From positions 6,634,001-6,698,000 of the forward strand of contig OZ038527.1 in the NCBI GenBank assembly GCA_964036665.1: a stretch of 64,000 nucleotides of DNA. Direction: 5' to 3'. The notes under the pieces are model-generated. The model was given only the letters and a program-made list of their open reading frames with translations, searched no databases and was not told the origin of the DNA. The position numbers were made by a program, and so were the translations under genes. This DNA comes from Gordius sp. MW1. Its lineage: Eukaryota; Nematomorpha; Gordioida; Gordea; Gordiidae. Below, one piece after another: positions 3,395 to 52,157 of this stretch. Positions within the stretch are counted from its first letter, which is position 1. Each line of letters begins with the position of its first letter.

Positions 3395-5593
3395 CTTTTA
3401 ATGTAATTAATATATTAGTGAAACAAAGCTAAGATTTTAAATTTAACGCCAAGTTGCAACGGCCTCATAGGGACATTTGTTTAATGACAAAATTTAACTG
3501 ATCGTAATTTTTTTAAATTTAAATAGCCCCTTAAAATGATTTTAAGGCTACAATATATATATTATTAGAATCAAATTATTTTAAATTTGGTATAATTAAG
3601 TCTTCAGTGAATCTGAGATTGTAAAATTTTTATTAAACTTTTCTATGATTTCTTAATAAGCTTGGTATTTACAATTCATATGTGAAAGAGGTAATAAGAC
3701 CTGAATTTTTATTTTAGACAAACATCACATTATAAAATTTTATATTATAAAATTGATAACAACGCTATGTTGCATATCATTGTATAGCGTATTATAAGGC
3801 TTAGCTATTATCCCACTGCGCTATAGTATCTAAGAATGAATATTTTAAAATAAGACGATTTATAATTTTAAGGAACAATATGCATCTTATTGCTATACAA
3901 TTATAAGGACTTATTAAGCAGAAGTCGAGCTTAGCTATATCTAATAGTAAGAGTCAAAATGCTTTGCTTTTGCACAATTGCACCATAATAGTCGCAATAA
4001 TTAATATGGTCTTATTGATCCTCAACCTACACTCTTTTAATTTAGAGGTTCTCCTATTAAAAACTTTTTGGCGGGAAACAACCTTAACCGGTTTTTATAA
4101 CTTTGTTTAGACTATACACAAAATATTTTCATTCCTTCGAACCAACTGTTATTTTTCCCTCTTAACTTAAAATATTCTACCAATAGGAACTATGGAATAC
4201 AAATATAATCAATATGAAGAGAGGTCTGGATTTACGACGCATGGTATCCGCGAATCAAATAATTCTAATTTTTATGCCATTTAGTTTAAATTTTGAATTG
4301 GAAACTAATTTGGCTAAACTTATTCCTATCTTTATTAGCACGTGGCTCGAAAATAATAACAACGTTTTCGCTCTTATTGGGGCTCATCAATATGCCATAG
4401 TTAATTTTCTAATTACATACTAATCGAGATAAATATAGGTTTAGTTTACTTTTATGGTTGTTAAGGATAAATCTTTGGATAAACCCCCATAATTGTGGTG
4501 CAAAGAATATTTTTTCTGTAATATTTAAATAAGGGTTAAAAACGATTCCGATTCATTATTATGAAGAGAGGTCCCGATTTATTTTTCCATAAAGTAATTA
4601 ACAACCAAGCGACCCTAACTTATGCATGCTACGCAAATTAGCAACATAAATGTATGGGCAAGCTATATATTTATATGAAGCATTCGACAAGTTATTGGAG
4701 CTATAATAGTTTAGAAGAGTTATTGATTGCATTATTTAAATTTAAAAATGGATCTATAAACATAATAGATATATTATGAATGTTCCTAGATTCTTATAAA
4801 TTTAAAAGATGCTTCTGACGGGTATGCAGAATTGCCAATTTACAATCAGACCAAGTGTAATTAGACCAACGTACAATTAGTTTTAAATTTCTTATCCAGC
4901 TTTTTAAATTGTATAACTGTTTATATTTGTACATATTTTTGGAATGTATACATAATTTTGTGTTATCTAGTGACTGCAGATAATTTTATAACTATAGCGC
5001 ATAAGGACACTCACAATTATTGGTTTATTTGTATCAAATTCTTTAAGGATATATTTAGGTTGTAAAAATTATAAGTTTTTAAGATAGTATAATGTATATA
5101 GGGAATTAAGTTGTAAAATATTTTATATAAATAATTGGCATATAAATCCTGAGCGCCCTTTTGTTATTATAAATTTTCTTAATTTTTTTTTAAATATTTA
5201 AATTTAGAGAACTACCCTTATTGGACAATTATCAAATACGATTATAACTGAAGGTACAAATATTTAAATGTAATTTAATCAAAGTGTAAAAGTATATAGT
5301 GTCTTTCAAAAAAACTTTTTGATGCGCTATTTAAATTAAATAATTTTGAAATAATTGACAAAGATTAATAAAATAAATCAATTATTATTCATAAGAAATC
5401 ACTAAACTATATCTTACCAGTTACAAACTATGAATGAAGTTAAATATTAGATTATATTATATTTTCGATATAATAGAATGACATGTAAAACGTTCCATGC
5501 TAATTTGTGATAATAATAATTTCGTAGTTGCGAGTTAAATGTTCTTACATTTATTATTTTGATGAATAAAAAATCCATGGCTTATGGATAAAC
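3395..5593. other. AT-rich intergenic DNA, nothing recognised
   Basis: Between the PLK start and the possible secretory exon. Only short chance frames are present and I see no conserved motif, RNA or mobile-element end. The PLK promoter should lie at its left edge, but no clear element is visible. Confidence 0.5.
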
Positions 5594-5677
5594 ATGAAGA
5601 ATTATATTATTTTGGTTTTGAGTTTTACAAGCCTATTTAATGCCCAACAACGATCCCTACTAGAAAACCAAAATCAG
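5594..5677 (+). CDS. Possible first exon encoding a signal peptide
   Basis: An ATG opens a 28-codon frame reading MKNYIILVLSFTSLFNAQQ followed by a polar stretch, then a plausible splice donor (CAG|GTATTA). The profile (Lys, hydrophobic core, small residue before Gln-Gln) is that of a cleavable secretory signal. No convincing second exon was found in the following kilobases, so the gene may be broken by the many insertions to its right, or this is chance. Function unknown. Confidence 0.3.
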
Positions 5678-7963
5678 GTATTATATAAAATTTGTACTCA
5701 ATTATTATAACTTTAACGATTTTAGATAACAAAACTATATATATATATAAATATGTCTATAAACGTAAAATTTTAAAAAATTTTGTGATTTATAAAAAGT
5801 CTTATTTATTTCATGGTTCCGCTATTTTAGTGAAACCTAAATTTATCTATTCAATGCATTACAAAATTAAATACATAAAATGATTGCGTGTACTATTAAA
5901 ACTTAGTTTTTTTTATGAACACACATAATTTGTTAAAAAAATTATGTACATAATGAAAAAATTATGTATGTTCATATATTCGAATTAAAGATTAAATGCT
6001 TATTAGTGGTCTCTAGGCCTGACCTAATCGGACTCGACGCCTCAGCCGCAAAAATATGTAAAATTGTATTAGGCGGGTGGGATCGGGCATATATTTTTCC
6101 TGGCGCCTCGGCATAAATTATCTTTAAAAAACCACTTCATGTTCATCTCCTTTAGCCTAATTTTATTTTTTGATATTTTCTGCTCGAATTTATAAAAATT
6201 AATTAAAATGCTGATGCGAAAAGTCAGAATTTTAAGCCAGCAATTCATAAATTTTAACACCTGCACTGATAGCACAACATCCAGCAAATGCTTAACAGAA
6301 GAAGTGGTGCTGAATGAATAATTTTATCTCTCATGTGGTTTCGTACTTGTATATCACTCGGTATTATTAATATGAATCATTTATTATATAAATAATTTTA
6401 ATAATTTAAAGTGAATTATATATTTATTGTAAAACTTGCAAAACTTAAGTTAAAGATTGGCTGTTAAAATATTTCGGTTAATTTTAATATCGGGCGGGTC
6501 GGGATCGGGTGGGGCAAAATGAAGACGGGAAGGGCTGGGTTCGGGCTTAAAAATTGTCTATTTGCAGACATCGGATGCTTATATATCCATTCAAAGTAAA
6601 GATGACAAATATGGTTGATGGAATTCCCAATATTTATAATATTGCTTTATAAACCTTTCCTAATAGTTATTATAGAGGATACATAGTAGTAAAAGAGAGT
6701 AATAATAATTTACTATTGTGTAAACAAAGATAAAATAAATAAAAATGACCACAATTATTTTTTTTATCAAAGGGCCATCAAGGGTTCGGCTCGCATTGAT
6801 ATGTTAAAACTATCATAATCGAGCTGGCCCATGGGCTAGTCTGACCCGATAGCTAACTGACCCTTAAAAACAAGTTTTTTTTAAATTAACTTAACTTTTA
6901 ATAATAATAATAAAGGCTCTAAGAGCGTTTATAGTATATAGCTTTTACATCACTTTACTAGCCCCTTTTCGCTTTCTATAATAACTTTTTTGTGTAAAAT
7001 TGTAAAATATTTTCTCGTTTTTTAAAAATACAGTATATAAAAATTCTTGTTTGCGAAAAATGAAATAACTTTGATAACAAATAATAACTCAAAAAGTCTA
7101 TTAAATTATTAAAATGAAAAAAATGCAGTTAAAAACCTCGCAATTGAAATGTTGCAATATAAGCTCTGGCAAGTGGCAAGGGCTTCGGTTGGGCTTAAAA
7201 TAAATATTTTTCTTCAACGCAGATGTAACAATTACAAAAACATATGGCTGGGGGGGGGGTCAAGATCGGGCCAATAATTGGCCCTAACGTTTGCTAATGT
7301 TGATGTTTTATTTATCTATAAATGTCAACCTACAAGCATTAACTGCTGTCGAGTTGAATAGGTAGAACAACTGAAGAATGATCATATAAAGGATTTTACC
7401 TGGACGTCAATATGGTTCTAAAATTTTTGTTCCCAAAATAAATTTACGACATACACTGCAGAGCAATGGAACTTCATGCTAGATAACATAGAATTTTGAT
7501 GAATAAGTATTTTTGATACATACAGTCGAAACTTCTTAATCGCAAAATCTTTTAATCGCGAAATTAACCGCCATTTTGTTTTTTTAAACGATAATATTAA
7601 CAAAAACATCGTTTATTGACAAATCGCTTAATAGTACAATATCGGATATTCACAAACATTTTCTAGTCCTTAAATCAACCAGATAATTATATAAAATATC
7701 GTTTTATAGCGAAGCGTAAGAATTGAATATAAAATATAATGTACATATACTTTTATTTCCATCATTTAATCGCGAAATATCGGTTAATCGCGAATTTTTT
7801 CTCAGGCCCGAGGCTTTGCAATTAAACGGTTTTGACTGTATTAGAAAGGATGGAGTATAAATTCAAGCTTTTGATTAGCTTCTCTTACATTTCCTTGTCA
7901 TATGCTTAAAAATGATTAAACTTTTAGAATAAGGCTTGTCAAAATTATGAGTTATAATATATG
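5678..7963. other. Intergenic DNA with G+C-rich repeat scraps
   Basis: Mostly AT-rich. Patches such as GGGCGGGTCGGGATCGGG (about 6060-6110, 6488-6550, 7240-7270) resemble the CCCGA-type low-complexity arms of the hAT-like elements at 19.3, 48.8 and 51.3 kb, so decayed copies are likely. No gene seen. Confidence 0.4.
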
Positions 7964-9136: not shown

Positions 9137-10870
9137 AATTGCTATGCAATTTATGGGCTCGTTTTTGGCTATCCGTTGATGTCCGTCCGTTTACCCTCCA
9201 ATGTATATATTTACTTAAATTAATATTTTGTTCTTGTTAATACCATTGATAATATGACTTTTTGACCGTCCACAGGCTACTGACCATTGAAAAAAATGAC
9301 CATTGGCCAAATAAATCGAATTTTTTTTTCGTTTTTGAATAGGTTAACATTGATAATTACCCTATGCCCTCCACTACAAGAGCCTATGCATCTACTGATA
9401 TGGGTCCCTGTACCCCTATTTAATTAAATGCTATGCAATTTATGGGCGGGCTCGCTTTCCATTTTATTGCTATGCAATTTATGGGCTCACTTTCCATTTT
9501 GTTTGTCTGCCTATTCGGCGTGCTACACCGCATGTCTTGTGCTACACCGAATGTCTTGTCACGCACCGAATGTCTTGTTTTGTTTACTTTTAATTTTTGT
9601 TAATTTAACTAGTTTTTAGGTTCGAATACCGGAGTTTTTTTTGACTCTTATGATTGTTCCTGTTACTACCATTGCTATTATGACTTTTTGGCCGTCCGTT
9701 GCCTGCTGACCAATGGAATGAAATGACCACTGGCCAAAGTATGATTCGAAAATTATTTTTTTCGTTTTTTTTACTATTATGATTGTTCCTGTTACTACCA
9801 TTGCTATTATGACTTTTTGGCCGTCCGTTGCCTGCTGACCAAGAGAATGAAATGACCACTGGCTAAAGTATGATTCGAAAATTATTTTTTTCGTTTTTTT
9901 TGACTAATATTGACAATTACCCTATGCCCTCCCCTAGTAGAGCCTATGCCTCTACTGATATGGGTCCCTATGCCCCCCCACAAAAGCCTATGCCTCTCCT
10001 GATGTGGGTTCGAATCCCGGAGAGGCCAAATTTTTATTTTATTTTTTTGTTTAAATTTATATATTGTTCTTGTTAATACCGTTGATAATAAGACTTTTTT
10101 GCCGTCCGTTGGCTGCTGACCAATGGAAAAAAATGACCATTGGCCAAAATGTTAATCGCAATTATTTTTTTCGTTTTTTTCTACTATTATGATTGTTCTT
10201 GTTACTACCATTGATAATATGGCTTTTTGGCCGTCCGTTGGGTGCTGACCAATGAAAAAATGACCATTAGCCAAAATGTTAATCGCAATTATTTTTTTCG
10301 TTTTTTTTTGACTATTATGATTGTTCCTGTTACTACCATTGCTATTATGACTCTTTGGCCGTCCGTTGGCTGCTGACTAATGGAATAAAATGACCATTGG
10401 CCAAATAAATCGAAATTTTTTTTTTCATTTTTTTTGACTATTATGAATTTATATCCACTTTTACCGTGTCCTGGCTGCTGACCAATGGAAAAAAATGACC
10501 ATTGGCCAAAATGTGATTCGAAATTTTTTTTTCGTTTTTTTTACTCTTATGAATTTATATCCACTTTTAACGTGTCCTGGCTACTGACCAATGGGAAAAA
10601 TGACCATTGGCCAAATTTTGAATCAAAATTTTAATTTTTTTTTCTATTTGGAATTGGTTAACATTGCTAATTACCCTATGCCCGTCAGTCCAATTATTTT
10701 GAATTTAATACCCCCCTATAGGCATTCTCGCCCCTTCCCACCTTTCTCGCCCATAAATTGCATAGCAAATATGCTACATTTATACGGAGAATAGATGAGT
10801 CGTCCCCCCTTCCCTTCCCCTCCTCCCCTTTCCCTTCTCCCCCTTCCCACGTGGGCCGAAGGCCCGAGTT
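9137..10870 (-). mobile_element. Family X element, copy X1 (reverse orientation)
   Basis: Read on the minus strand it starts with the hairpin end ACTCGGGCCTTCGGCCC, then a purine-rich GGGAAGGG tract, GGTGGGAAGGGGCGAGAATG, a series of 110-150 bp repeats containing CCAATGGTCA...CCATTGG, and ends at ATTGCATAGCAATT. It holds a GGTTCGAATCCCGGAGAGGC motif (about 10007-10026, plus strand). Seven copies or fragments occur in this window. Its 5' end lies about 30 bp before the first visible exon of the gene at 10902. Open frames inside it (FHWSAANGRPKS-like) are by-products of the repeats. Confidence 0.75.
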
Positions 10871-19268: not shown

Positions 19269-20297
19269 TAGAGAATTGCACGGATGACCCGAGACCCGAC
19301 CTGATATCAGGTCGGGTCGGGTTCCAAAGAAAATTTTAAAATGTCTTCGGGTTGGGTTCGGGTTGAAAATTTTGAAATGCTTTCGGGTCGGGTTCGGGTT
19401 GAAAATTTAAATATGCTTTCGGGTCTTGTCGGGTTAGTTTTAAAGTGTCGGATCATGGGTTATGAATCTTACATTGCAGAATACACGGGGCATGTCTTGA
19501 AAAATAATGCCATTATGTATAATATTTTTTAATTAACATCGAAATGTATAATTGAAGATCATTCATTAAGTTAAAATTCCTTTTGTTTTTTTAAATCTGA
19601 TTCTTTTAATTTGGACGCAAACTTAAATTTGACCCGTGAAAGGTAAAATATAACAACAAAATAATATTTTTAAATTGTATTTAAATAGCGTGAAGTTGTA
19701 ATTCATTATTAATTTAGTCTACATAAAAATATATTCATAAAACAAATAAGATTATGTTTAAATTTATTAAATGATTCATTTGCAAAACTCTATATTTTAA
19801 ATTGAATGTGACCAGATACTGTGTGCTATCATATATATATATGTTTATAATAAATCATTAAAATAAATTCAAAATCTGTAGAATCAATTAATTTCATAAA
19901 TCGCACTTTAATTTGTCGATTAAATTTTAGCACCCTCAGGAAGTAGCCAGGAAAGAAATTAGAGGGGGGTAGTAATGATTAAGGGACTATTTTTTATATT
20001 TTAGCCATAATTTGATAAAATGTATAAAAATTTTGGATTTAGAGGGGGAATCCGCTCGATTCTGCCACCCTCTGGCTACGCCCATGCACACCGCAATTTT
20101 TCTTACTCTCGCGTTGGATACCAAAATTTAAAACACGTTCGAAAGGGATTCGGTTAAAATTTTTTAACGCTTTCGGGTCGGGCCGGGTCGGGTTGAAAAA
20201 TTTAAAATGCTTTCGGGTCGGGTCGGGCTGCAAATTTTAAAATAAACTTCGGGTCTGGTCGGGTTCGGGTTGGAAAAAAGTGACTTTGCAGTTCTCT
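19269..20297. mobile_element. hAT-like non-autonomous element, TAGAGAA(C/T)TGCA ends, copy A
   Basis: Left end TAGAGAATTGCACGG, right end TTTGCAGTTCTCT(A), flanked by AATTAGAA on both sides (19261-19268, 20298-20305), an 8-bp target duplication. Both arms consist of variants of TTCGGGTCGGGTTGAAAATTT, so the ends resemble each other as low-complexity inverted arms. A smaller MITE with AGTAGCCAGG...CTGGCTACGCC (about 19937-20085) sits inside. A second copy is at 48764-52332. No transposase visible. Confidence 0.65.
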
Positions 20298-20876: not shown

Positions 20877-22739
<1,863 letters not shown>

Positions 22740-27158: not shown

Positions 27159-29554
27159 CTAGCTGAACCCGGCAAACGTTGTTTTGCCATTTACCCGGGT
27201 ATATTAGCAGAATATATATCATCTTATAGATAAGTTTCAATAGATTAAGAATATATCAAATATAATTGGTAAGTTTTATTATGCAAACATTTTTGAACAA
27301 ATAGTTAAAGAGGGTCCAAGGCCCACCTAAGAGAGAACTGGCCCCATGCCCCCCCCCAAGGGAAAAATCTTTGGCCCCCTGGCCCTTTAAGAATTTTTTT
27401 TAATTTTTTGTAATTAAGAAACAATATCATAATTATAATTATTTGTTTCTGAATAAAACTTTTAATTCTGAACTTAATAATGTCCGAAGAACAAAAGGCA
27501 AATACGGATACGCATATAGTTTATTTAACGAAAAATAACAAATAATTAATAATTTTAAGATAAAGTGTGGCGTTGTGCAAAATTCTGCACCTTTATTCTG
27601 CACCTTTGCCCCATCCCCAAGGAAATTTTTTTAAGTCAAATTTACCTATAATCAAAAATTAATCATTAAATTTTGGATACATTTTTTTAAAGCTATCGCT
27701 AGAGACCTACAAAATGGTATTTTTTGAGGTCATAGTCTGGCCCAAGGCTCCCCCCCCCCCAAGGGAAAAATCTTTGGCCCTCTGGCCCTTCAAGGAATTT
27801 TTTTTTAATTTCTTGTAATTAAGAAACAATATCATAATTATAATTATTTGTTTCTGAATAAAACTTTAAATTCTAAACTTAATAATGCCCGAAGAACTGA
27901 GATATATCAACATTTATTGGCACTTTGTTTAAATTATTTTAATTTTTCTCCTTATCTAACGCGCAAAAAATGACAAAATTAGATTTTTTTACTTTATTTA
28001 GCCACGCAGGAGGGGAGACGACCGTCCTATAATAATAAAACTCGGGCCTTCGGCCCTCGTGGGAAGGGAGGAAGGGAAGAGGGGAAGGGAAGGGCGAACT
28101 CTTCTATACTCTGTATAAAAGTAGCATATTTGCTATGCAATTTATGAACGAGAAAGGTGGGAAGGAGCGAGAATGCCTATAGGGGGTATTGCAAAATGAT
28201 TAGTTAATTATTTATACAAAAAGAGTCAAAAAAAACGAAAAAAAACTTCGTTTCACAGTTTGGCCAATGGTCATTTTTTCATTGGTCAGCAGCCAGTATA
28301 CGGTAAAAGTGGATATAAATTCATAAGAGTCAAAAAAAAAATTCAATTCACAATTGGCCAATGGTCATTTTTTTCCATTGGTAAGCAGCCAGGACACGGT
28401 AAAAGTGGATATAAATTCATAAAAGTCAAAAAAAACGAAAAAAAAATTTCGATTCACATTTTGGCTAATGGTCATTCATTCCATTGGTCAGCAGCCAACG
28501 GACGGCTAAAAAGCCATATTATCAATGGTATTAACAAGAACAATCATAATAGTCAAAAAAAACGGAAAAAAAAAATTTCGATTCACATTTTGGCCAATGG
28601 TCATTTCATTCCATTGGTCAGCAGCCAACGGACGGCCAAAAAGTCTTATTATCAATGGTATTAACAAGAACAATATATTAATTTAAACAAAAAAAATAAA
28701 AAATAAATTGGCCTCTCCGGGATTCGAACCCACAGGAGAGGCATAAGCTTTTGTAGGGGAGGGAGGCACAGGGACCCATATCAGTAGAGGCATAGGCTCT
28801 GCTAGGGGAGGGCATAGGGTAATTATCAATGTTAGCCAAAAAAACGGAAAAAAAATTTCGATTCACATTTTGGCCAATGGTCATTTTTTCCATCGGTCAG
28901 GCGCCAGCGGACGGCCAGAATGTCATAATAGCAATGGTAGTAACAGGAACAATCATAATAGTCAAAAAAACGAAAAAAAACTTGGATTCACATTTTGGAC
29001 AATGGTCATTTTTTTCATTGGTCAGCACCCAACGGACGGCCAAAAAGTCTTATTATCAATGGTAGTAACAAGAACATCATAAGTCAAAAAAAAACCCGGG
29101 ATTTGAACCCAAAAACTAGTTAAATTAACAAAAATTAAAAGTAAACAACGTGACAAGACATTCGGTGCAAGACACCGAATAGCGGGACAAAACAAAATGG
29201 AAAGGGAGCCCATAAATTGCATAGCAATTAATAATTGAAGTGAAAAATAAGCAAAAAAATGACTTTGATACACAATGTTTCAAATCGTAAAAACGCACAT
29301 GCCTACATTTATCACACTACAAACGATAGATACGCAGGGTGCGTTTGATTGACATTCAATTAAACGTTAAAACGTATAAAACAAAATATCTCAAAAACTA
29401 CTGGACCGATTTGGTTCAAACAAATCTTAAAACATGCTCCGGAGTGTCAAAAATAAACTGCGAAATTTTGAGCCAAATCGGTCTGGTAGTTTTCCAAAAT
29501 TGGTTGCGGCATACATACATACACACATACATAGTTTCATTTTTATATATAAGA
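27159..29554 (-). mobile_element. Non-autonomous Helitron H2, interrupted by X2
   Basis: Same ends as H1 (CTAG at 27159-27162, TC at 29553-29554 on the minus strand). Follows H1 after two bases and abuts H3 directly, so the three form a head-to-tail row. An X element (28039-29231) is inserted in it; comparison with H1 shows no bases duplicated or lost at the insertion point. Confidence 0.82.
28039..29231 (+). mobile_element. Family X element, copy X2
   Basis: Starts AACTCGGGCCTTCGGCCCTC and ends CATAAATTGCATAGCAATTAA. The host site in Helitron H1 reads CCTATAATAATAATAATTG; here CCTATAATAATAA and TAATTG flank the element, so insertion left no target duplication. Contains several CCAATGGTCAT...CCATTGGTCAGCAGCC units and one complement of the GGTTCGAATCCCGG motif (about 28715). 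Confidence 0.8.
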
Positions 29555-36780: not shown

Positions 36781-36932
36781 GTTTTTTTTAAATTGCTATG
36801 AAATTTATGGGCTCGCTTTTGGTTGTCCTGTCCAACTTGCAATTTTTAAATAATTGCCGTGGAAACTTATACGGGTTTTTAATGGCTGTGGACCTATGCT
36901 TTTGCAAATACAGCTAATGACCGCTGATAAGC
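36781..36932 (-). mobile_element. Family X fragment X7 (3' end only)
   Basis: TTGCTATGAAATTTATGGGCTCGCTTTTGG matches the 3' terminal part of X in reverse orientation. It is cut at 36932 by the LTR element, whose target duplication TAAGC is taken from it. Confidence 0.55.
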
Positions 36933-37985: not shown

Positions 37986-39896
37986 AACTCGGGCCTTCGG
38001 CCCTCGTGGGAAGGGGGAGAAGGGAAGGGAAGAGGGGAAGGGAAGGGGGGACGACTCATCTGTACTTCGTATAAATGTATCATATTTGCTATGCAATTTA
38101 TGGGCGAGAAAGGTGGGAAGGGGCGAGAATGCCTATAGGGGGGTATTAAATGCCTAATGATTAATTAATTATTTATACAAATTTTCCATTATAGGCAAAA
38201 TGTAATAAAGGCAAAATGTAATATAGGCAAGGGTTAGGGTTAGATTTAGTGTTTGCATCTAGTTGCGTATTACATTAGTTTTTATGGCCTTTAGTGATTA
38301 TGGGTCTAACAAACATTATATTATAAAACAACAGAATGTTAAGAATTTGCAGAATTGTTGGGAGAAATTTTTTGTTGAATTTGAACAATTTTTAATTAAA
38401 AAAATCAAAAATTTGGCCAATGGTCACTTTTTCTCTATTGGTCAGTACCAACAGATACTCTATAAGTCAATGATAGTCAAAAAAACGGAAAAAAAAATTT
38501 TGATGCTGACTTTGGCCAATGGTCATTTTTTTCCATTGGTCAGCAGCCAGGACACGGTAAAAGTGGATATAAATTCATAAGAGTAAAAAAAACGAAAAAA
38601 AAATTTTCGAATCACATTTTGGCCAATGGTCATTTTTTTCCATTGGTCAGCAGCCAGGACACGGTAAAAGTGGATATAAATTCATAATAGTCAAAAAAAA
38701 ACGAAAAAAAAGTTTTCGAATCACATTTTGGCCAATGGTCATTTTATTCCATTGGTCAGCAGCCAGCGGACGGCCAAAAAGTCATAATAGCAATGGTAGG
38801 AACAGGAACAATCATAATAGTCAAAAAAAAACGAAAAAAATAATTTCGATTCACATTTTGGCCAATGGTCATTTTTTCAATAGGTCAGGAGCCAGCGGAC
38901 GGCCAAAAAGTCATAATAGCAATGGTAGTAACAGGAACAATCATAATAGTCAAAAAAACACGAAAAAATAAACTCGGATTCACATTTTGGCCAATGGTCA
39001 TTTTTTTCATTGGTCAGCAGCCAACGGACGGCCAAAAAGTCTTATTATCAATGATAGTAACAAGAACAATCATAAGAGTCAAAAAAACTCCGGGATTCTA
39101 ACCCAAAAACTAGTTAAATTGCATAGCAATTAAAAGTAAACAACTTTTATTTATGTTTATTATATAACATTGGTCAGCAGCCAGCGGACGGCCAAAAAGT
39201 CATAATAGCAATGGTAGAAACAGGAACAATCATAATAGTCAAAAAAAAACGAAAAAAATAATTTCGATTCACATTTTGGCCAATGGTCATTTTTTTCATT
39301 GGTCAGTAGCCAGCGGACGGCCAAAAATTCTTATTATCAATGATAGTAACAAGAACAATCATAAGAGTCAAAAAAACTCCGGGATTCTAACCCCAAAACT
39401 AGTTAAATTGCATAGCAATTAAAAAGTAAACAACTTTTATTTATGTTTATTATATAACTAGTTAAATTGCATAGCATTAAAAGTAAACAACTTTTATCTA
39501 TGTTTATTATATAACAAAAACTAGTTAAATTGCATAGCAATTAAAAGTAAACAACTTTTATTTATGTTTATTATATAACTAGTTAAATTGCATAGCAATT
39601 AAAAGTAAACAACTTTTATTTATGTTTATTATATAATAGATAATTTAACAAATCTTATATATAACACACAGAGAGAGATAGAGATGAGGGGTGGGGCACC
39701 TCTTATGCATTAATTCAAAAAATAACACTGCGAGGGAGATAAAGATGAGGGGTGGGGCAACTCTTTCTCATCCATTAATTTAAAAAAGCGATAACCTAAT
39801 ATACCCAATGCAAATAGATAGGGAGGGTAACGGACGACGGACGACGGACGACGGACGGACACCAAAAAACGATCCCATAAATTGCATAGCAATTAA
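37986..39896 (+). mobile_element. Family X element, copy X3 (inside LTR element)
   Basis: AACTCGGGCCTTCGGCCCTC start, purine-rich tract, five to six CCAATGG hairpin units (38410-39040, 39170-39340), then four copies of a ~60-bp unit AACTAGTTAAATTGCATAGC...TTATTATATAAC (39107-39640), a (CGGACGA)n stretch (about 39832-39860) and the ATTGCATAGCAATTAA end. Nearly identical over 39000-39896 to 44660-45602. Confidence 0.8.
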
Positions 39897-42898: not shown

Positions 42899-43260
42899 AA
42901 CTCGGGCCTTCGGCCCTCGTGGGAAGGGGGAGAAGGGAAGGGGAGTAGGGGAAGGGAAGAGGGGAAGGGGGAACTCTTCTATACTCCGTATAAACGTAGC
43001 ATATTTGCTATGCAATTTATGGGCGAGAAAGGTGGGAAGGGGCGAGAATGCCTATAGGGGGTATTAGATGCAAAATAATTAGTTAATTAGTTATAGGCCC
43101 TTGTAGGGGAGGACATAGGGTAATTATCAATGTTAACCAATTCAAAAACGAAAAAAAATTTCGATTTATTTGGCCAATGGTCATTTTTTTATTGGTCAGT
43201 AGCCAGCGGACGGTCAAAAATTCATATTATCATTGGTATTAACATGAACAAATATTAATT
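42899..43260 (+). mobile_element. Family X 5' portion, copy X4
   Basis: AACTCGGGCCTTCGGCCCTC start, GGGAAGGG tract and GGTGGGAAGGGGCGAGAATG, then one CCAATGG hairpin unit. The continuation may be X5 at 44074 with intervening DNA inserted. Confidence 0.7.
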
Positions 43261-43288
43261 TAATTTAAAAAAATTAAAAAAAAAAATT

Positions 43289-43361
43289 TGTCCCCTCCCT
43301 GACTTGAACCCCACACCTCCAGTTCACAAGCCTGCGCTATAACCACTATACCATGCTGGCT
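43289..43361 (-). tRNA. tRNA-like pseudogene or tRNA-derived SINE head
   Basis: The complement contains a good A box (TGGTATAGTGGTTATAGCGC) and B box (GGTTCAAGTC) at tRNA spacing, followed by a T-run. The presumed acceptor strands (GCCAGCA and GGGGACA) do not pair and the anticodon stem is poor, with GTG in the loop position. So it is not an intact tRNA; a pol III promoter-bearing pseudogene or SINE head is the likely reading. Confidence 0.5.
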
Positions 43362-44073
43362 TTAAAATAGTAGAAGTTATTATGTTATTTATATAGATGA
43401 TGAAATTAATATGACTTTTTGACCGTCCGCTGGCTACTGACCGACGAAATATATTGATTTTCTAAACATAAAACACAACTATTAACAAAAACAAAATATT
43501 AATTTAATGTAAAAAAAAAATTAAAAAAAAAGTTTTTTTTAGTTTTAAAAAAGGGCTAAATTCTTAAACTACCAGCCCGATTCGCTCGAAACTTTACCCG
43601 TAGGTGCCCAGGGCGGCCGGGGGTAAAATAACCTTTTCAGATTCCTAAAATACCTTTTCATTTTAAAAATATCGGACATTTCCCTGCCACACGCGGTGTA
43701 ATATCTATGACACGTAGAAAAATTTTACTAATTATATAAACTTACGCGCGCCATCTAATAAAGTACAATTCGTGTTTGAGTTTAATAGTAGATTCAATTT
43801 AATTAGAAATAACGGGCTATGCTTATACCTTTGAAGGAGGTTTCGAATTTTGTGTTAGTTTCTATCGATATATTTTATCGTAAATTAGAATCTAATACCT
43901 ATATTATTTTTTTAAATATTACTTTTTAGGTTTTCTATGAAATCACAATCTAATTAAATGAAATATATTAACCCAATAAAAAAATATATATGCATTTATA
44001 AGGTTAAAAATATATATTACATAGTTGGCTGTCTGTTAGACCATCTATAATAAATTTTTAGGTTATATATAAA
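43362..44073. other. Unassigned DNA between X4 and X5
   Basis: One reverse-oriented X scrap (GACCGTCCGCTGGCTACTGACC, about 43419). The remainder is AT-rich with no gene. Confidence 0.4.
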
Positions 44074-45602
44074 ATTTGGCCAATGGTCATTTTTTTTCAT
44101 TGGTAAGCAGCCAGGACACGGTAAAAGTCGTTATAAATTCATAAGTCAAAAAAAAACGAAAAAAAAAATTTTCGAATCACATTTTGGCCAATGGTCATTT
44201 TTTCCATCGGTCAGGAGCCAGCGGACGGCCAAAAAGTCATAATAGCAATGGTAGTAACAGGAACAATCATAATAGTCAAAAAAAACGAAAAAATAAACTC
44301 GGATTCACATTTTGGCCAATGGTCATTTTTTTCCATTGGTCAGCAGCCAGCACACGGTAAAAGTGGATATAAATTCACAAGAGTAAAAAAAACGAAAAAA
44401 AAATTTTCGAATCACATTTTGGCCAATGGTCATTTTTTTCCATTGGTCAGCAGCCAGCGGACGGCCAAAAAGTCATAATAGCAATGGTAGGAACAGGAAC
44501 AATCATAATAGTCAAAAAAAACGAAAAAAATAATTTCGATTCACATTTTGGCCAATGGTCATTTTTTTCCATCGGTCAGGAGCCAGCGGACGGCCAAAAA
44601 GTCATAATAGCAATGGTAGTAACAGGAACAATCATAATAGTCAAAAAAAAACGAAAAAATAAACTCGGATTCACATTTTGGCCAATGGTCATTTTTTTCA
44701 TTGGTCAGCAGCCAACGGACGGCCAAAAAGTCTTATTATCAATGATAGTAACAAGAACAATCATAAAAGTCAAAAAAAACTCCGGGATTCTAACCCAAAA
44801 ACTAGTTAAATTGCATAGCAATTAAAAGTAAACAACTTTTATTTATGTTTATTATATAACATTGGTCAGCAGCCAGCGGACGGCCAAAAAGTCATAATAG
44901 CAATGGTAGAAACAGGAACAATCATAATAGTCAAAAAAAACGAAAAAAATCATTTCGATTCACATTTTGGCCAATGGTCATTTTTTTCATTGGTCAGCAG
45001 CCAGCGGACGGCCAAAAATTCTTATTATCAATGATAGTAACAAGAACAATCATAAGAGTCAAAAAAAACTCCGGGATTCCAACCCCAAAACTAGTTAAAT
45101 TGCATAGCAATTAAAAAGTAAACAACTTTTATTTATGTTTATTTATAACTAGTTAAATTGCATAGCATTAAAAGTAAACAACTTTTATCTATATTTATTA
45201 TATAACCAAAACTAGTTAAATTGCATAGCAATTAAAAGTAAACAACTTTTATTAATGTTTATTATATAACTAGTTAAATTGCATAGCAATTAAAAGTAAA
45301 CAACTTTTATTTATGTTTATTATATAATAGATAATTTAACAAATCTTATATATAACACACCGAGAGAGATAGAGATGAGGGGTGGGGCACCTCTTATGCA
45401 TTAATTCAAAAAATAACACAGCGAGGGAGATAGAGATGAGGGGTGGGGCACCTCTTTCTCATCCATTAAGTTAAAAAAAGCGATAACCTAATATACCCAA
45501 TGCAAATAGATAGGGAGGGTAACGGACGACGGACGACGGACGACGGACGACGGACGACGGACGGACACCAAAAAACGATCCCATAAATTGCATAGCAATT
45601 AA
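44074..45602 (+). mobile_element. Family X 3' portion, copy X5
   Basis: Starts within a CCAATGG unit and carries several more, four ~60-bp tail units (44800-45330), a (CGGACGA)n tract (45522-45566) and the end ATTGCATAGCAATTAA. From about 44660 on it is nearly identical to X3, pointing to recent mobility or duplication. Confidence 0.75.
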
Positions 45603-45823: not shown

Positions 45824-45895
45824 TAGCAGAGAGTAGTTTCGATCTACCGACCTCTGGGTTATGGGCCCAGCACGCTTCCACTGCGCCACTCTGCT
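45824..45895 (-). tRNA. tRNA-iMet: Initiator tRNA-Met (CAT)
   Basis: 72 nt. Acceptor stem AGCAGAG pairs perfectly with CTCTGCT plus discriminator A. D-arm GGCGCAGTGGAAGCG, anticodon arm CTGGGCCCATAACCCAG with CAT, and T-loop GATCGAAAC carrying the A54/A60 features of eukaryotic initiators. The first pair is A-T, also diagnostic. It is followed by AAAATTTTTATTTTT, a pol III terminator. It differs from the animal consensus at only a few positions, all in the D-loop and T-arm. Intact by inspection. Confidence 0.95.
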
Positions 45896-49455: not shown

Positions 49456-52157
49456 AACTCGGGCGGAAAGGGGGAGGGGGGAAGGGAAGAGGGGAAGGGA
49501 AGGGCGAACTCTTCTATACTCTGTATAAAAGTAGCATATTTGCTATGCAATTTATGGGCGAGAAAGGTGGGAAGGGGCGAGAATGCCTATAGGGTATTAA
49601 ATGCAAAATGATTATTTAATCATTTATACAAAAAGAGTCAAAAAACGAAAAAGAAACTTCGTTTCACAGTTTAGCCAATGGTCATATTTTCATTGGTCAG
49701 CAGCCAGGATACGGTAAAAGTGGATATAAATTCATAAGAGTCACAAAAAACGGAAAAAAAAATTTTCGATTTACATTTTGGCCAATGGTCAATTTTTTCC
49801 ATTGGTCAGCAGTCAGGAAGGACACGGTAAAAGTGGATATAAATTCATAAGAGTCAAAAAAAAAACAAAAAAATTTCGATTCACATTTTGGCTAATGGTC
49901 ATTTTTTCCATTGGTCAGCAGCCAACGGACCAAAAAGCCATATTATCAATGGTATTAACAAGAACAATTATAATAGTCAAAAAAAAACGAAAAAAAATTT
50001 TCGATTCACATTTTGGCCAATGGTCATTTCATTCCATTGGTCAGCAGCCAACGAACGGCCAAAAAGTCTTATTATCAATGGTATTAACAAGAACAATATA
50101 TTAATTTAAACAAAAAAAATAAAAATAAATTTGGCCTCTCCGGGATTCGAACCCACATCAGGAGAGGCATAGGCTTTTGAAGGGGGGGGGGACAGGGACC
50201 CATATCAGTAGAGGCATAGGCTCTGCTAGGGGAGGGCATAGGGTAATTGTCAATGTTAGCCAAAAAAAACGAAAAAAATAATTTCGATTCACATTTTGGC
50301 CAATGGTCATTTTTTCCATCGGTCAGCAGCCAGCGGACGGCCAAAAGTCATAATAGCAATGGTAGTAACAGGAACAATCATAATAGTCAAAAAACGAGAG
50401 AAAAAACTTGGATTCACATTTTGGCCCATGGTCATTTTTTTCATTGGTCAGCACCCAACGGACGGCCAAAAAGTTTTATTATCAATGGTAGTAACAAGAA
50501 CAATCATAAGAGTCAAAAAATATTATCAATGGTATTCACAAGAACAATCATAAGAGTCAAAAAAAAGACGAAAAAAAAATTTCGATTGACATTTTGGCCA
50601 ATGGTCATTTCATTCCATTGGTCAGCAGCCAACGGACGCCAAAAAGTCTTATCAATGGTATTAACAAGAACAATATAGTAATTAAAAAAAAAAAAAAAAA
50701 TTTGGCCTCTCCGGGATTCGAACCCACATCAGGAGAGGCATAGGCTTTTGTAGGGGGGCACAGAACCCATATCAGTAAAGGCATAGGCTCTGCTAGGGGA
50801 GGGCATAGGGTAATTGTCAATGTTAGCCAAAAAAAACGAAAAAAATAATTTCGATTCACATTTTGGCCAATGGTCATTTTTTCCATCGGTCAGCAGCCAG
50901 CCGACGGCCAAAAAGTCGTAATAGCAATGGTAGTAACAGGAACAATCATAATAGTCAAAAAAAAAGGAAAAAAAACTTGGAATCACATTTTGGCCAATGG
51001 TCATTTTTTTCATCAGTCAGCATCCAACGGACGGCCAAAAAGTCTTATTATCTTGGTGGTAACAAGAACAATCATAAGAGTAAAAAAAACCCGAGATTCG
51101 AACCCAAAAACTAGTTAAACCATAAATTGCATAGCAATTAATTACAATTAATAATAAGCGTTATGGGTGCGTTACACGTTCGGTGCGGACGCGTTCGGTG
51201 CGTTACCGTGACTTCGGAAAATGGAAAGCGAGCCCATAAATTGCATAATAATTAAAAATTAGCCTCCCCGGGATTCGAACCCACATCAGTAGATGCATAG
51301 GCCTTTGTAGGCGGTAGCTAGAGCCCTGCACGGGCCGTCCGAGGCCCGGCCCGACGGGCTTTCGGGCCGAACTCGGGCAGAATTGTATAAAACAATCGGG
51401 CCTCGGGCTCGGGTCGGGCCTGATGCGGCGGCCCGACCTGAGGCCCGAGCCCGAATTGAATTAAAGCAAATTAATCTTTTATAAAATAGGATTTAAATCA
51501 ACTCAACTCAATATTAATAATTATCTTCGCGCAGCCTACATTATATAGCTTCTAAACTTCAGCTTATTTCCCTTGTCTAATATAATATAACTGACCTGAA
51601 TTGCAAATCTTACTATATTTTATAGAATCATAGTAGCTGTTACAACTTTAGAAATAAGAAAAGTAACTATTTCAAAAAGTTTTTTATTTGAAACTGTTAA
51701 AAATTTATTTTATATAGTTAAATTTTTAGCTTTAAATGATTAGCTGAATAAACTCTAACGAGTGGAAACGGATTTTTTATTTCAAATTCATTCTAGTTGT
51801 AAATTAGGAGTAATAACAATGTAATGCATTTTATATCTAGATGGTGAAAAAAATTCGGTAATATATTTTTTAAAAAATTTTATTTAGAAAATCGGGTCTC
51901 GGGCTCGGGCCTAAAATAAAAAAGTCTTTCGGGCTCGGGCAAAATAAAAATTGAAAAGTCGGGCTCGGGCCGAAGAAATTTCATTTTGCAGGGCTCTAGC
52001 GGTAGCACAGGGTATCGTACTCAAAATGGCTTATTCGAATTCCAAGCGGTCTCAGTGGTAAACACAAACACGCCGAAAAGCATTCGGTGCGTGACACGAA
52101 GAGCGTTACGTGACTTCGGAAAATGGAAAGCGAGCCCATAAATTGCATAGCAATTAA
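49456..52157 (+). mobile_element. Family X element, copy X6, with nested hAT MITE
   Basis: Begins ACTCGGGCGGAAAGGG (the 5' hairpin is damaged), then the GGGAAGGG tract, about ten CCAATGG units and two complements of the GGTTCGAATCCCGG motif with the surrounding GAGAGGC hairpin (about 50130-50170 and 50700-50745), a third near 51262, and ends at ATTGCATAGCAATTAA. Internal copies of the terminal hairpin (51125, 51235) suggest partial tandem duplication. Confidence 0.75.
51319..51998. mobile_element. hAT MITE (TAGAGCCCTGCA ends)
   Basis: TIR TAGAGCCCTGCA/TGCAGGGCTCTA with exact 8-bp target duplication GCGGTAGC (51311-51318, 51999-52006). The arms are CGGGCTCGGGCC-type low-complexity repeats; the middle is AT-rich and non-coding. 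680 bp, nested in X6. Confidence 0.88.

Follow-up and report, generated by a model that had tools for sequence, protein, structure and literature searches.

A high-copy transposon family in the Gordius sp. MW1 genome is very probably of the non-autonomous Helentron type

To which class of transposon does family X belong, a repeat with hairpin ends and CCAATGG tandem units, one copy of which (X2) lies in the 64,000-nucleotide stretch of DNA analyzed here (the window)? A preliminary description placed it with the Helentron-like HINE/DINE-1 elements, and our analysis upholds this class call: X is very probably a non-autonomous rolling-circle transposon of the Helentron/Helitron2 type (a HINE, DINE-1-like). 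Its anatomy fits the published description after strand reversal, it targets TT with no target duplication of fixed length, and Helentron-type Rep/helicase genes are found in the genome. Family X is a high-copy, partly young addition to an already known transposon type.

The window contains five copies of X and one fragment (Table 1), where seven copies or fragments had been claimed; the entries at 42899 and 44074 are a single element (X4), because L018 and L020 each align to it unbroken over the supposed gap. The CCAATGG...CCATTGG tandem units are real, with periods mostly of 96-130 bp, and overlapping tandem-repeat rows cover 9634-10632, 28238-29093, 38473-39087, 44144-44780 and 49639-51089. 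In X2, the 5' palindrome overlaps the 5' subterminal inverted repeat (29208-29227), and the flanking Ts (As on the plus strand) at 28037-28040 and 29230-29231 may belong to either element or target.

Table 1. Features of family X, neighboring features of the window and Helentron-type loci of the genome. Positions without a contig prefix are those of the window.
Feature	Position	Strand	Remark
X2, copy under study	28041..29229	-	Very probable non-autonomous Helentron (HINE); 5' end 29229, 3' end 28041
X2 5' terminal palindrome AATTGCTATGCAATT	29215..29229	-	6-bp stem, 3-nt loop
X2 central tandem units	28238..29093		~96-130 bp; most with a CCAATGG...CCATTGG inverted pair
X2 3' subterminal inverted repeat	28130..28146	-	17 bp kept
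X2 polypyrimidine tract	28057..28100	-	Purine-rich on +; between 3' subterminal repeat and 3' hairpin; limits by eye
X2 3' hairpin GGGCC-GAA-GGCCC	28043..28056	-	Near element 3' end
X1	9137..10868	+	Same family; extra internal 5'-end-like repeats
5'-end fragment	36791..36805	+	One palindrome mismatch; given as 36781 in the preliminary description
X3	37988..39894	-	Full copy
X4	42901..45600	-	One full 2.7 kb copy
X5	49458..52155	-	Damaged 3' hairpin
tRNA-like stretch in X4	43281..43380	-	By eye
tRNA-Met gene	45824..45895	-
CTAT tetranucleotide array	20879..22739		About 464 copies
Helentron-type loci	C6:2706861-2709113; C8:4088256-4090508; C2:7809966; C2:7826462
Convergent Rep pair	C2:7809966/7826462	+/-
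Convergent Rep pair	C8:31247508/31256893	+/-
Convergent Rep pair	C8:5355581/5365271	+/-
Convergent Rep pair	C6:10958558/10992499	+/-

Within the window, the hairpin end CGGGCCTTCGGCCC occurs four times exactly and five times with up to two mismatches (0.02 expected by chance), AATTGCATAGCAATT 26 times with up to two mismatches (chance 0.64), and CCAATGGTCAT 38 times with up to one mismatch (chance 1.2); both end motifs and the last of these lie far above shuffled expectation. The preliminary description called for a collection of ends across the genome, which was carried out here with exact end motifs: in 211.8 Mb on 12 contigs, the hairpin end has 3,919 exact copies and the other end, GAGCCCATAAATTGCATAGCAATT, has 6,382, each with a reversed control of 0. 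If most of the exact hairpins represent copies near the median of ~1.85 kb, X would by our estimate occupy a few percent of the genome. Thousands of repeat ends are now assigned to a named transposon class, with their true orientation fixed. The exact X-end patterns had no match in viral contigs, nor in a prokaryotic genome collection from which records near the source genome were possibly left out.

The structure of the element was established from 20 stretches around the first listed contig 1 copies, a non-random sample chosen by the exact hairpin. Automatic pairing gave 26 end pairs. Six needed correction: in three the partner was an internal repeat, in two the outer hairpin of a nest had been matched with the 5' end of the inner copy, and one was mispaired. 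Five were re-paired and one was dropped, leaving 25. The element reads in order on the strand opposite to that first proposed, with AATTGCTATGCAATTTATGGGC as its 5' end and GGGCCGAAGGCCCGAG, on the transposon strand, as its 3' end. The direction originally reported is inverted: the hairpin taken for the 5' end is the 3' end of the transposon, and the supposed 3' hairpin end is the 5' terminal repeat. From 5' to 3', X comprises a 5' palindromic repeat, GTCY repeats, CCAATGG tandem units, the inverted copy CCATAAATTGCATAGCAAATA, a polypyrimidine tract and a 3' hairpin, and its ends read AATTGC...GGCCCGAG(TTT). Of 35 five-prime ends, 28 have the 5' repeat followed by two or more GTCY units, which either adjoin or are separated by a 3-base unit; the seven ends without them include X2 and X5 as well as one internal repeat. 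Common to both ends is a 20 bp subterminal inverted repeat, TTGCTATGCAATTTATGGGC, which begins 2 bases into the 5' end (HINEs have at least 11 identical bp, with the 5' repeat at the terminus). Across the 25 pairs, 98-158 bp (median 116) separate its 3' counterpart from the 3' end, owing to the intervening polypyrimidine tract. The GC-rich 3' hairpin, GGGCC-GAA-GGCCC, was detected 29 times with up to two mismatches in the examined stretches.

When folded as single-stranded DNA, the 5' palindrome reaches -3.4 kcal/mol (8 of 200 shuffles as good) and the 3' hairpin -5.2 kcal/mol (6 of 200); the CCAATGG unit is likewise equaled by 6 of 200 shuffles. The 25 pairs span 1,189-4,480 bp, the longest with nested copies or additions. 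Among the 58 hairpins listed for contig 1 up to 2.93 Mb, 46 could be joined, within 15 kb, to a five-prime end from the first 100 in the list (median 1,852 bp); for the other 12, those 100 ends include none within that distance. The 3' module of the commonest subfamily (18 rows, 128 columns) has a median pairwise identity of 98.4% (minimum 80.5%), and all 26 rows together 89.1% (minimum 72.7%), values unaffected by the flaws in end pairing. As a separate observation, exact 5' ends outnumber exact 3' hairpins genome-wide, and extra 5'-end motifs are clustered, e.g. at C1:324424-325083 and in X1.

The insertion sites of X are strongly biased. In a de-duplicated set that is independent of end pairing, and in which fragments and an internal repeat (window 9464) are counted among the 35 five-prime ends, TT stands to the left of 33 of the 35 and directly follows 28 of 29 three-prime hairpins on the right, against a background share of 0.137 of dinucleotides. 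Moreover, 29 of the 35 are preceded by T, A or T, T, T, while the hairpins are followed by TTT in 26 of 29 cases and by TTTT in 21. Five junctions were compared with uninterrupted sequence: X2 was set against four host-repeat copies (in L017 and in the regions of window 26760, 29975 and 47600), the L010 copy and X5 each against two empty copies, and a pair of nested insertions against parental X sequence. No host base was lost at any of the five, and the junctions carry surpluses of 4 (X2, A/T bases), 5, 2, 4 and 5 bases. These are Ts, save one G or A in the 5-base cases, and when the L010 copy is compared with window 19480-19575 non-T bases also fall in the gap. It had been stated that X2 inserted with neither loss nor duplication of host bases; the first half is borne out, and the second holds only if the four extra A/T bases belong to the element. 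Over the five junctions, a 2-bp TT duplication aside, the empty sites show no target site modification, as is characteristic of HINEs; a TT duplication with extra Ts supplied by the element is a formally possible alternative reading of these junctions.

Both sides of the element carry TT in 23 of the 25 corrected pairs, which, together with the 20 bp inverted repeat near both ends, recalls a MITE derived from a cut-and-paste (DDE) transposon, bearing inverted repeats and duplicating a TT target; DINE-1-like elements were formerly annotated as MITEs, according to PMC4067079. This origin is nevertheless highly improbable for X, whose inverted repeats are asymmetric, one terminal and the other 98-158 bp from its end, whose surplus at the junctions ranges between 2 and 5 bases, and whose flanks share 3 bases in six of the 25 pairs, 5 bases in two, and 6, 7 or 8 in none. 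X5 and the L010 copy (4321-5986) occupy the identical position of one host repeat, empty versions of which lie at window 19480-19575 and L017 810-910. Either this is a preferred site, or the host repeat was copied with X inside.

The non-autonomous Helentron reading agrees with the anatomy of described elements, with differences at the 3' end. As described in PMC4067079, HINE/DINE-1 elements resemble X in their 5' palindromic subterminal repeat, the inverted copy before the 3' end, the 3' stem-loop, a TT target with the variable number of Ts noted for HINEs by Thomas and colleagues, a microsatellite plus central tandem repeats, high copy number and the absence of protein-coding sequence. They differ in that the autonomous partner of X is a presumed one, and in spacing: the mite HINE places its 3' subterminal repeat 38-60 bp and its hairpin 8-35 bp from the 3' end, whereas the repeat of X lies outside that range, at 98-158 bp, and its hairpin stands 3 bases before the terminal Ts. 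The Pacific oyster Cg_HINE, as portrayed in PMC7492417, likewise has two HINE modules that enclose satellite-like repeats, the left one with GTCY/GTCC microsatellites, and it shares the T-rich target, the lack of target duplication and an unlinked partner; it belongs to a different host and apparently lacks a polypyrimidine tract, and the two are likened by description. Family X adds one more case of a HINE spreading satellite-like tandem units. With Helitron2, as characterized in PMC3627910 and PMC5148889, X shares asymmetric terminal inverted repeats, the 5' one hairpin-forming, hairpins at both ends and a T-rich target; the Helitron2 3' repeat lies about 20-30 bp from the end, against 98-158 bp in X, and the studied X copies show no transposase. 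Since Helitron2 (20-30 bp) and the mite HINE (38-60 bp) themselves disagree, this spacing is not uniform within the class; X, with its polypyrimidine spacer before a near-terminal hairpin, departs from both.

The genome is rich in canonical Helitron genes. The Helitron Rep profile PF14214 yielded 150 scored domains out of 714 candidates, and the 30 loci fetched from these form one cluster. Among the 50 of the 150 listed domains that were examined (the 30 loci and 20 short stretches), 48 have the canonical L in motif 2 (L048 and L077 are unreadable) and none has the Helentron S. Canonical Helitrons (Helitron1) share with X the rolling-circle class, a 3' hairpin and the lack of target duplication, and so abundant a machinery could in principle mobilize it. 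We consider this very unlikely, as X lacks their TC start, their CTRR end and their target between A and T, and instead inserts at TT and possesses inverted subterminal repeats. The analysis supports the preliminary description in setting X apart from the canonical Helitrons.

Helentron-type genes are also encoded. With approximate Helentron-like Rep and helicase sequences as queries, the former matched 22 places, with a best value of 2.1e-19 and four or more of the weakest being canonical Helitrons, and the latter 89, of which the strongest share loci and frames with several of the Rep matches, including those on C6 and C8, while many of the weaker coincide with canonical Helitrons. Rep and helicase occur in one frame of 1,767 aa on C8 and of 1,580 aa on C6. 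The C8 locus reads RIEFQHRGSPHAHILLWL, which fits the Helentron signature, an S between G and P, given in PMC4067079, and C8:4090101-4090220 reads the Helentron-type motif IEFQHRGSPHAH (RGSPHAH). A 40-residue C8 query found 19 loci of at least 68% identity among 40 listed (150 of 186 candidates scored), the C6 copy being 100% identical over the 40 residues; these 19 Rep loci apparently form three groups, with the motif read at C8 only. Neither the PF14529 endonuclease (41 matches; 150 of 265 candidates scored) nor the OTU domain PF02338 (22 matches; all 55 candidates scored) has a match beside the Helentron-type genes; the missing endonuclease suggests that these may be Helitron2 genes, not Helentron proper. 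No X module appeared in 20 samples, each of 42 bases, taken on either side of the C8 gene (8 upstream and 12 downstream, some of which may fall inside the gene), and none of the longer contig 1 end pairs coincides with any Helentron-type gene. For the Rep/helicase element with X ends that the preliminary description had proposed to seek, the Helentron-type genes are candidates, and the autonomous partner of X is accordingly a presumed one.

Two further features of these loci were recorded. Among the ~19 Helentron-type Rep loci, eight are arranged as four inverted pairs that converge over 9-34 kb, which may reflect either palindromic duplication or an assembly effect. At C8:4091700-4092931, the eight upstream 42-base samples resemble repeats of a single sequence arrayed in tandem, carrying a reading frame such as MSTDTPEDVEARL.

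Taken together, the anatomy, the TT target with no fixed duplication and the Helentron-type Rep/helicase genes suggest that X moves by rolling-circle copy-and-paste in trans. By analogy with the known class, the Helentron-type Rep/helicase would nick the 5' end of X inside TT, one X strand would be peeled off and replaced by host synthesis, the 3' subterminal repeat and GAA-loop hairpin would act as the stop signal, and the displaced single strand would be inserted at another TT. As in the oyster Cg_HINE, the CCAATGG tandem units would be passengers; they would expand and contract. It is conceivable, if rather doubtful, that X represents a Helentron/Helitron2 sub-lineage with a rebuilt 3' terminator, comprising a near-terminal GC hairpin with a GAA triloop and a polypyrimidine spacer of tens of bases, served by an endonuclease-free Rep/helicase and able to pick up tRNA-like sequence. 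The near-identical X copies and identical long Rep/helicase frames make this a usable system for the end-signal requirements of Helentron proteins.

Some copies contain tRNA-like stretches. One in X4 has A-box- and B-box-like motifs and a T run; it recurs at L018 5441-5540 and L020 2441-2529, with a weaker partial match in L017. A second, the stem GCCTCTCC...GGGTTCGAATCCC...GGAGAGGC, resembles a tRNA T-arm plus acceptor stem and folds as DNA with a z of -4.9; the window and the 20 stretches together hold 10 occurrences of it (window 9987, 28711, 50134, 50705 and 51262, and five in loci). Such internal stretches could indicate a SINE-like retroposon, an idea that is scarcely credible for an element that has both ends conserved and shows neither an A-rich tail at a fixed end nor a long target duplication (none of the 25 pairs shares 6, 7 or 8 bases). 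Nor is a tRNA identity upheld by Rfam, which at E up to 1 returns no tRNA in either stretch; the T-arm-like stem has one sub-threshold lncRNA match (score 12, cut-off 90). ARAGORN reports no tRNA in the window besides the tRNA-Met gene, which lies outside X4, some 220 bp past its 5' end. Elsewhere, the window contains a long CTAT tetranucleotide array (Table 1).
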